A stretch of DNA of 64,000 nucleotides, taken from NCBI GenBank assembly GCA_024275955.1, contig JAJRYD010000031.1:2501-66500 (forward strand), read 5' to 3'. The notes under the pieces were generated by a model that was not told where the DNA came from, did no database searches, and was given only the letters and a program-made list of their open reading frames with translations. Numbering within the stretch: position 1 is the first letter of the stretch; every line of letters begins with the position of its first letter. This document shows positions 44,390 to 46,491 of this stretch, piece by piece. The stretch is from Nitrospirota bacterium. Its GTDB lineage: Bacteria; Nitrospinota_A; UBA7883; JACRGQ01. The position numbers and the translations under genes are program-made.

Positions 44390-45259
44390 CTATTCAGTTA
44401 CTCTAAACTTAAGCTTCCCTACGAAGTATCTTTTCTCCGGTAATCCTCCGGCAAGAATCCATAGGTATTTGCCATCTTCGGCGAACTCCTTACTGTCTAT
44501 CGTTACCGAGTTCTTTTTTGTTTCGATACGCATTACCGTTTGCGGTGCTATGCCGGAGATGTTTTGCAGTACGAAGTTGTAGCGGTCTGCCTCTTTAACA
44601 TCTTTCCAGAGGAACTTTATAGTTTGCCTGCCAGCCTCGACTTTCATCTCTGCCGGCCGACTGCCGATTTTCTCTCCGCTTTTGCCAAGATAAAAAAGAG
44701 GCTGTTTATTTGCGAGGTTCGCGAATATCGAATATTGTGAACCTCCAGTTATTTCTGAAACATGAATAGCGTCTCTTTCTATAAATATAAATAGAAAAAG
44801 GATAACCGCCGTAGCAAAAGCAGGTAAAGGTGCCGTTCTAAAACTGTTTCTAATAATATCCCATACGGTCTTGTTTTCACTAGTCGGAGCTATCATGGGG
44901 AGCGTCAGGTTTATCGCGGTTTTGAGATATTTCTCTGGCGCGGATGGCAGTTCGTCGGTTTTCATAGCTGTCGATTTAGCATGGTAATAGGCGGCACTCT
45001 CGAAGCAGTAACAGCAGTTTTGTATATGAAGCTGTTTTTCGCTTACACTTTTAGTTTCTTCGTTGTCGATAATGTTTGCTATATCTTCTTGGGATAGGCA
45101 GTCTTTTTTCTTTTTACCCATCAAGATAGCACTGCCGGAAACTGCCGACTGAAACTCTTTTAAGAGAGCTATTCTATCTGCACAGCTGTCACAAAGATGG
45201 CCGGGCATTTTTTTGCTGTTAACCGCCTCTAGTATCTCGGCTGAATTAAGGTGCTTCAT
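44390..45259 (-). CDS. Membrane protein, anti-sigma-factor-like, with zinc-binding motif
   Basis: A 289-residue protein whose ATG overlaps the stop of the region-4 gene. The cytoplasmic N-terminus (residues 1-145) has two Cys clusters, GHLCDSCADR and HIQNCCYCFES, resembling zinc-binding anti-sigma modules. One TM helix lies at about 147-167 (PAFATAVILFLFIFIE) and a beta-rich extracytoplasmic domain of about 120 residues follows. Its arrangement after the split sigma genes suggests it tethers and inhibits the sigma factor until an envelope signal releases it. This is inference; it shows only loose similarity to the ZAS family. Confidence 0.6.
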   Translation of the reverse strand: MKHLNSAEILEAVNSKKMPGHLCDSCADRIALLKEFQSAVSGSAILMGKKKKDCLSQEDIANIIDNEETKSVSEKQLHIQNCCYCFESAAYYHAKSTAMKTDELPSAPEKYLKTAINLTLPMIAPTSENKTVWDIIRNSFRTAPLPAFATAVILFLFIFIERDAIHVSEITGGSQYSIFANLANKQPLFYLGKSGEKIGSRPAEMKVEAGRQTIKFLWKDVKEADRYNFVLQNISGIAPQTVMRIETKKNSVTIDSKEFAEDGKYLWILAGGLPEKRYFVGKLKFRVTE

Positions 45260-45858
45260 GTAGCCACCCCTGTTTCCGAAAGAACCGATTTCAACGCTTT
45301 AACCGATAAATTGTTATGCCCGATAGTTGCTGTATTTTTCATTTTGGCCAAAAGTTTTTTTAAAACCGTTTCCACAGACCGAAAAACCCCGCCGACGCTC
45401 TTAGGCATCTCTGCCCCGTTCATTCCTGTCTTTTCGTAAAATCGTAATATCTCCCTGCCTGTCATTCTTTGGTGAAAGAAAAGATGCAAAAGTTTTCTGT
45501 CGTCGTTCTCCATGCCGGATATAGCTTTTTCCAGCGATGTTAAAAATGTTTTTAAGGCCAAACGGTCTTCCGGCGAAATTTCTACAGAGAGAGGTTCCAT
45601 CCTGCCGCTGTTGTCAGCGTCTATTGATATCATTAAAGGGTCGGTAATTATGTCGTATTTTCCGTTTGCTATAAGCGTACGTTTTACTTCGCTCGAAAGC
45701 TTAGAAACTTTCGAGAGTGGGAAACCTGTTTCGACAGCTATCTGTTCTTCGGTTTTTCTGAGACGCAGAAATATACAGACGCTTTGGGTGTCGCGCGATA
45801 GCTTCTTTATTTCCGATGGAAGCCTTTGGTAAGCGGTATTGCTAAAAAACTCGTCCAT
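45256..45858 (-). CDS. Sigma factor region-4-like protein (second half of split sigma)
   Basis: A 200-residue protein. Residues about 10-60 (YQRLPSEIKKLSRDTQSVC, LRKTEEQIAVETGFPLSKV) and about 115-165 (ISGMENDDRKLLHLFFHQRM, TGREILRFYEKTG, SVGGVFRSVETVLKKLLAKM) have the helix-turn-helix character of sigma region 4. Its ATG (45858), with aggtgg upstream, lies inside the last codons of the region-2 gene. Deleting one T from the T6 run near 45845-45850 would fuse the two into one reading frame. Either a two-subunit sigma or a frameshifted single sigma is possible. Confidence 0.6.
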   Translation of the reverse strand: MDEFFSNTAYQRLPSEIKKLSRDTQSVCIFLRLRKTEEQIAVETGFPLSKVSKLSSEVKRTLIANGKYDIITDPLMISIDADNSGRMEPLSVEISPEDRLALKTFLTSLEKAISGMENDDRKLLHLFFHQRMTGREILRFYEKTGMNGAEMPKSVGGVFRSVETVLKKLLAKMKNTATIGHNNLSVKALKSVLSETGVAT

Positions 45859-46264
45859 ATTTCCACCTAAGCCAGTCTATATAAAATTCCCTTGAGTTAA
45901 GGATTCGCCAAACGAATGTGGAGAGCTTGCTGTTATTGCGAGCGGAGTAGCGGACGACCCGCTTTTGCAACTGCTCGAATATCCAGATATATATTTCCAT
46001 ACCGTCATCGCATTCATCCTCGCGCCTCTCTGTTGTTCTCCCTTCCATTTTGGAATGGAGCAGTGCCAGCCCGCAGTTCGCGCAAGGCTTGCCACAGTGC
46101 CGTTCGCACCATTTTCGCGCTCTGTAAAGCACCCAGCTGGAATAACCGAGGACGAACCTCTCCCATGCTTGGGTATCGCCTTTTGCTATTTTGGATACCA
46201 GCTCCAGATCGGCTTTTGGAAGCTGTTTTTGCTCTTTCCCGCTCTCTGCAATAGGTTTTGTCAT
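45842..46264 (-). CDS. ECF-like sigma factor region-2 protein (first half of split sigma)
   Basis: A 140-residue protein. LVSKIAKGDTQAWERFVLGY at residues about 22-41 matches ECF region 2.1, and SARNNSKLSTFVWRILNSR followed by DWLRWKYGRV matches regions 2.3-2.4 that melt and read the -10 box. Between them is an insertion with four Cys (CERHCGKPCANC) that could bind zinc. There is no region 4; the gene ends at TAG 45842, just past the start of the region-4 gene. No other gene lies between here and the upstream MITE. Confidence 0.65.
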   Translation of the reverse strand: MTKPIAESGKEQKQLPKADLELVSKIAKGDTQAWERFVLGYSSWVLYRARKWCERHCGKPCANCGLALLHSKMEGRTTERREDECDDGMEIYIWIFEQLQKRVVRYSARNNSKLSTFVWRILNSREFYIDWLRWKYGRVF

Positions 46265-46491
46265 AAAGTGAACCTATTTTAGCTGAATATACAGCTTTTA
46301 GGGGCATTTGGGCAGTTTGGCCTTTTATATTTTCCATCACTAATAGTTAGACGGACAGGTTATTCTGGTTCTTACAGGTAGAGCAGATATTTTTAAAATT
46401 TTGAAAACCGGCCGCGCCGCGCCGTTGCCGTCTTGCCGGCGGGGCGCGTAGTGGCGGTAACAGAAAAAGCTAGAGTCAGCCTGTATCTTAT

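Follow-up and report, generated by a model that had tools for sequence, protein, structure and literature searches.

Three overlapping genes in the window, by which we mean the whole 64,000-nucleotide stretch analysed here, encode the proteins P1, P2 and P3 (Table 1), and it is probable that P1 and P2 pair up as the subunits of a single alternative sigma factor that, with P3 as its anti-sigma factor, reads a bipartite promoter. A preliminary description of this DNA had left open a two-subunit sigma factor, a slippage-controlled sigma factor and a fresh frameshift; the first of these is supported by the conserved split, by a P2 frame that varies between lineages and by an AGG signature at the P2 start site, and we also observed a promoter motif that is associated with sigma-bearing genomes. 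The open reading frames, their positions and their overlaps (17 nt between P1 and P2, 4 nt between P2 and P3) are as that description gave them, as is the T6 run at the junction. P1 ends in ...DWLRWKYGRVF followed by TAG, and P2 begins MDEFFSNTAYQRLPSEIKKL in the +1 frame relative to P1, with its ATG 14 nt ahead of the P1 stop codon. The locus is single-copy in the 2.45 Mb genome.

Table 1. Features of the P1/P2/P3 locus, in window positions
Feature	Position	Strand	Remark
P1: sigma region 2 subunit, 140 aa	45842..46264	-	
P2: region 3-like domain and sigma region 4, 200 aa	45256..45858	-	
P3: membrane anti-sigma with two zinc-finger-like motifs, a single TM segment and a periplasmic part, 289 aa	44390..45259	-	
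Shine-Dalgarno AGGTGG for P2, within the Arg-Trp codons of RWKYG	45863..45868	-	
T6 run at the P1/P2 junction, slippery site not kept in relatives	45844..45849	-	
C53-H56-C57...C64...C85 Cys/His cluster inserted between regions 2.1 and 2.2 of P1	46010..46108	-	
Promoter element GTCCGTCTAA	46347..46356	-	common to gspC promoters
AAGAACC, -35-like part belonging to this element	46367-46373	-	

P1 was detected in 20 of 24 Nitrospinota genomes, and in all 20 carriers its frame stops straight after WKYGRxF or an equivalent sequence. Four Nitrospirota genomes show the identical split, the sigma family being present in only 4 of the 346 genomes sampled from that phylum. The same split in relatives, which the preliminary description had named as a point to check, is found in both phyla with both halves conserved and the stop at the same place. 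This is far beyond chance, and the split is conserved, old and real.

An AF2 model of P1 (pLDDT 83.7) has region 2 of sigmaE/SigW as its best PDB folds (Foldseek probability 0.96 but E 0.3), with nothing at E ≤ 0.001 in the fold search against the PDB, and P1 alone matched no sigma model in Pfam. Its NCBIfam sigma matches are weak; the best family is the type III-E CRISPR-associated RpoE-like sigma factor (NF041236, E 3.7e-5, residues 81-136), although the score of 23.8 bits compares with a curated cut-off of 100 bits, and the neighbouring genes that were read include none of CRISPR type. P2 matched the NCBIfam models FliA_WhiG (E 4e-4) and Sig-70_gmx1 (E 1.4e-4), its profile found FliA in the PDB (E 1.5e-4), its fold search returned SigB, FliA and sigma32, and Pfam Sigma70_r4 was matched by 7-8 of 15 P2 members. 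Residues 15-137 of P2 align to FliA positions 80-197, and its model contains a predicted extra HTH domain ahead of region 4. Since P1 corresponds to region 2 and P2 to FliA/WhiG-like regions 3-4, the break lies between regions 2.4 and 3. The pair belongs to the sigma-70 superfamily, by Pfam and the PDB profile for region 4 and by fold and fused homologues for region 2. P2 had been called a region-4 half, and it does contain region 4, but together with the region 3-like domain indicated by NCBIfam, the PDB profile and the model. The label ECF-like was for the same reason half right, as ECF (group 4) sigma factors have regions 2 and 4 only and lack the FliA-like region 3 of P2.

The four-Cys insertion CERHCGKPCANC noted earlier in P1 is a real and conserved cluster, but the ligand-like set is C53, H56, C57, C64 and C85 rather than those four cysteines, because C61 is not conserved. 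In every member, whether from Nitrospinota, from Nitrospirota or among the fused relatives, C57, C64 and C85 are unchanged, and C53 and H56 are invariant in Nitrospinota. The cluster could bind zinc.

The reading of P3 as a membrane anti-sigma factor is upheld by a conserved HxxxCxxC motif, in which H78, C82 and C85 are invariant, and by the zf-HC2 model (PF13490), which matched 13 of 14 P3 members, the window's own P3 giving no match to it at E ≤ 0.1. A similar motif near the start has nearly invariant H21, C23 and C26, and P3 also has a TM-like segment, read off the sequence and not taken from a prediction tool, and a predicted outside part. P3 thus has the features of ZAS anti-sigma factors, including a gene that adjoins the sigma genes in most members, but not in G062. 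On contig C173 of that genome (L113, L144) some 18 kb separate the sigma genes from the anti-sigma gene, which has kept the promoter motif.

This motif, approximately TTCAAA-N12-TGTCCGTC(A/T)AAT, is bipartite and goes with the sigma family. GTCCGTCTAANTA has only two sites in the whole genome of the window, one 83 nt upstream of P1 and the other just ahead of gspC, which heads a gspC-gspD-gspE type II secretion operon (by Pfam). The strict motif occurs about one to two times per genome in the window's family, with the examined sites at the sigma operon or gspC, and each of the 19 Nitrospinota gspC promoters that were read has GTCCG(T/A) directly ahead of the gene. In a count made outside the lineages of discovery, TGTCCGTC(T/A)AA gave 11 matches in 19 sigma loci (300 kb) against a mean of 0.3 and a maximum of 3 for 200 permuted motifs, nine of the 11 falling in Nitrospirota and the phylum with the fused sigma factor. 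With 35 sites aligned, the second block TTCAAA appears at a fixed distance, with A in 30 and 29 of the 35 at its best two columns. All four Nitrospirota with the split genes, G062 included, have the motif ahead of the anti-sigma gene, its first base 17-31 nt from the start codon, and in this phylum it also precedes genes for LPP20-type lipoproteins and other exported proteins. The sigma and anti-sigma genes are followed there (L068:8353-16566, L115:508-8378) by genes for an M48-type peptidase with TPRs, LPP20 lipoproteins, a trypsin-like protease and WD40-like proteins, several of which carry the promoter motif.

Autoregulation across the whole class was considered and rejected, as only the window's family has the motif ahead of its sigma operon, whereas in families f2-f6 the operon itself is without it. 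In many members of f2-f5 the P1 start is instead immediately preceded by TTGACC-N17-TATAAT. At loci L011-L014, L016, L018 and L019, all outside the window's family, only about 5 nt separate the end of this textbook promoter from the start codon of P1, a spacing that suggests a leaderless P1 mRNA.

One rival reading is that the genome's ordinary ECF sigma factor reads the TGTCCGTCTAA promoter, with P1/P2 acting otherwise or on other genes. One RpoE-like ECF sigma factor is present (L109), and the gspC promoter (L066:3073-4018 (-), contig C7 of G000) reads GGAACTT-N15-GTCTAA, 12-20 nt from the gspC start, which we take to be close to the classic sigmaE promoter, so that an ordinary ECF factor could read such a site. 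Three genomes (G001, G004 and G018) moreover keep the gspC motif with no P1 detected in the assembly, which may reflect incompleteness or another reader of the motif; these genomes and the presence of the ordinary ECF factor are what make another reader possible. That sigma-bearing G060, G273 and G385 lack the strict bipartite form likewise counts against P1/P2 as the readers. Against the rival, the sigma loci of three phyla, those of the fused form included, show a clustering of the motif, and its strict bipartite form has six sites in sigma-bearing G096 but one in the other 345 Nitrospirota genomes, nearly all of which are without this sigma factor. On balance we regard reading by the ordinary ECF factor as unlikely and retain P1/P2 as the probable readers.

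In overlapping members the RWKYG codons AGG TGG AAA TAT GGn supply both a Shine-Dalgarno sequence and the ATG of P2, so that AGGTGG-AAAT-ATG precedes the window's P2. The Arg codon of RWKYG is AGG in 17 of 20 overlapping members, compared with 20% of other Arg codons (p about 1e-9, a nominal value as the members are not independent), and in G008, G009, G010 and G017 it is the sole AGG in the compared stretches of both genes. In the five members whose genes are separate (with no start there) or fused, the codon is CGN and never AGG, and the ribosome-binding site proposed earlier for the second gene is thereby supported. G011 keeps the ATG at RWKYG with a CGC codon, but just past its P1 stop there is a second ATG together with an SD-like AGGGAA, which we read as one more case of a shifted P2 start.

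The alternative that a fused single sigma factor arises by +1 ribosomal frameshifting or transcriptional slippage at TTTTTTAG draws on the TTT TAG of the window and about half of its relatives, which could slip +1 with perfect re-pairing, and on the fused reading GRVFSNTAYQRLP, whose linker would be nearly equal in length to that of natural fused proteins. However, the frame of P2 varies by lineage: it is +1 with the ATG at -14 in most members, 0 after TAA in G012, -1 (TGATG) with GGGAGG upstream in G021, and +1 but after an intervening TAA in G019, with a TTG start and its own GGGAGG; each P2 outside the usual arrangement has its own start codon. Neither is the T run conserved, the junctions in relatives reading GTA TTT TAG, GTC TTT TAG, ATA TAG or TTC TGA. 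The SD-like AGGTGG lies 15 nt from the slip codon, a spacing for initiation and not for +1 shifting, and the AGG signature tracks the ATG. The locus thus has neither the conserved slippery site nor the constant relative frame of a programmed frameshift gene; the variable frames rule out slippage or +1 frameshifting as the general mechanism, and we consider it very unlikely to explain the window's genes either. A recent frameshift, pseudogene or assembly error, under which a one-base change would fuse the frames, is practically excluded by the stop shared by 20 Nitrospinota and four Nitrospirota genomes with both halves conserved, the carriers including G011, whose assembly is 100% complete in 4 contigs.

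In our working model of the two-subunit sigma factor, P1 would provide region 2, for core binding and -10 recognition, and P2 the region 3-like domain and region 4. The two would be translated separately from a single mRNA, P2 initiating at an ATG with a Shine-Dalgarno sequence inside the last P1 codons. We infer that P1 and P2 assemble on RNA polymerase into a holoenzyme that would read TTCAAA-N12-TGTCCGTC(A/T)AAT promoters, and that zinc-finger P3 keeps them inactive until an envelope signal is received. The putative regulon comprises, in the window's family, this sigma operon and the gspC-gspD-gspE operon for type II secretion and, in Nitrospirota, the anti-sigma gene, which would form a feedback loop, and exported proteins. 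A more ambitious version, which we put forward as speculation with the odds against it, is a phylum-wide, obligate two-subunit sigma factor that acts as an AND gate, in which one subunit, with region 2, senses metal or redox state and the other reads the promoter, each possibly held by one zinc finger of P3 and both dedicated to type II secretion in Nitrospinota, the pair having arisen by splitting (or having later been re-fused) from a one-chain sigma factor that still exists. If this were true, the value of splitting would be directly testable, as the one-chain sigma factor still exists.

The closest system in mode of working is SigO-RsoA, the two-subunit sigma factor of Bacillus (PMC8103513, PMC10028694, PMC10141391), in which regions 2 and 4 lie on two polypeptides that are both needed. 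An integral membrane protein regulates that pair as well, and its own operon is likewise among the targets. In contrast, the gene order here puts region 2 in front, overlapping the second gene by 17 nt; the region 2 subunit, which has 140 aa and a conserved Cys/His cluster, exceeds in size the 9.0 kDa partner in Bacillus (PMC10141391); the regulator is a zinc-finger anti-sigma factor; and there are fused homologues. With the Pfam and NCBIfam models available, the scans brought up none for SigO or RsoA and showed no sequence relation to that system. FliA/WhiG (group 3) factors resemble P2, which aligns to their regions 3-4, but FliA is one chain, lacks a zinc-finger membrane anti-sigma factor and uses another promoter. 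ECF (group 4) factors with ZAS-type anti-sigma factors (RsiW class) share the operon layout, an HxxxCxxC anti-sigma factor with a TM segment, an ECF-like promoter and, in sigmaE/SigW, the best folds for P1; they differ in being single-chain and without region 3.

As far as the literature searched shows, Bacillus has the one known system of two-subunit bacterial sigma factors; no further natural split sigma factor was found in it, nor a paper joining Nitrospinota with sigma and anti-sigma control. A second case, separately built, phylum-wide and with one-chain relatives that have the same motif at their loci, would make the question of why a sigma factor is split approachable. For Nitrospinota, to which the marine nitrite oxidiser Nitrospina belongs, it would also supply a candidate regulator of protein secretion and a candidate binding site.

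Two homologues, 331 aa and 341 aa long, are single chains that read ...RWKYGRVDENDEKRLPVAIKKL and occur in a small other phylum (nine genomes), and a distant one-chain version of 305 aa is present in one Nitrospirota genome. The tree's outgroup branch is too long for it to polarise the change between the split and the fused form. A Nitrospirota-type P1/P2 copy in the other phylum (L045, G065:C30:21200-24550) looks decayed, with P2 broken over two frames, and is perhaps a transferred, dying copy. In both genomes with a one-chain sigma factor beside its anti-sigma factor, a caspase-like (Peptidase_C14) gene lies next to the pair (L067:1988-3430, L112:3519-4907).
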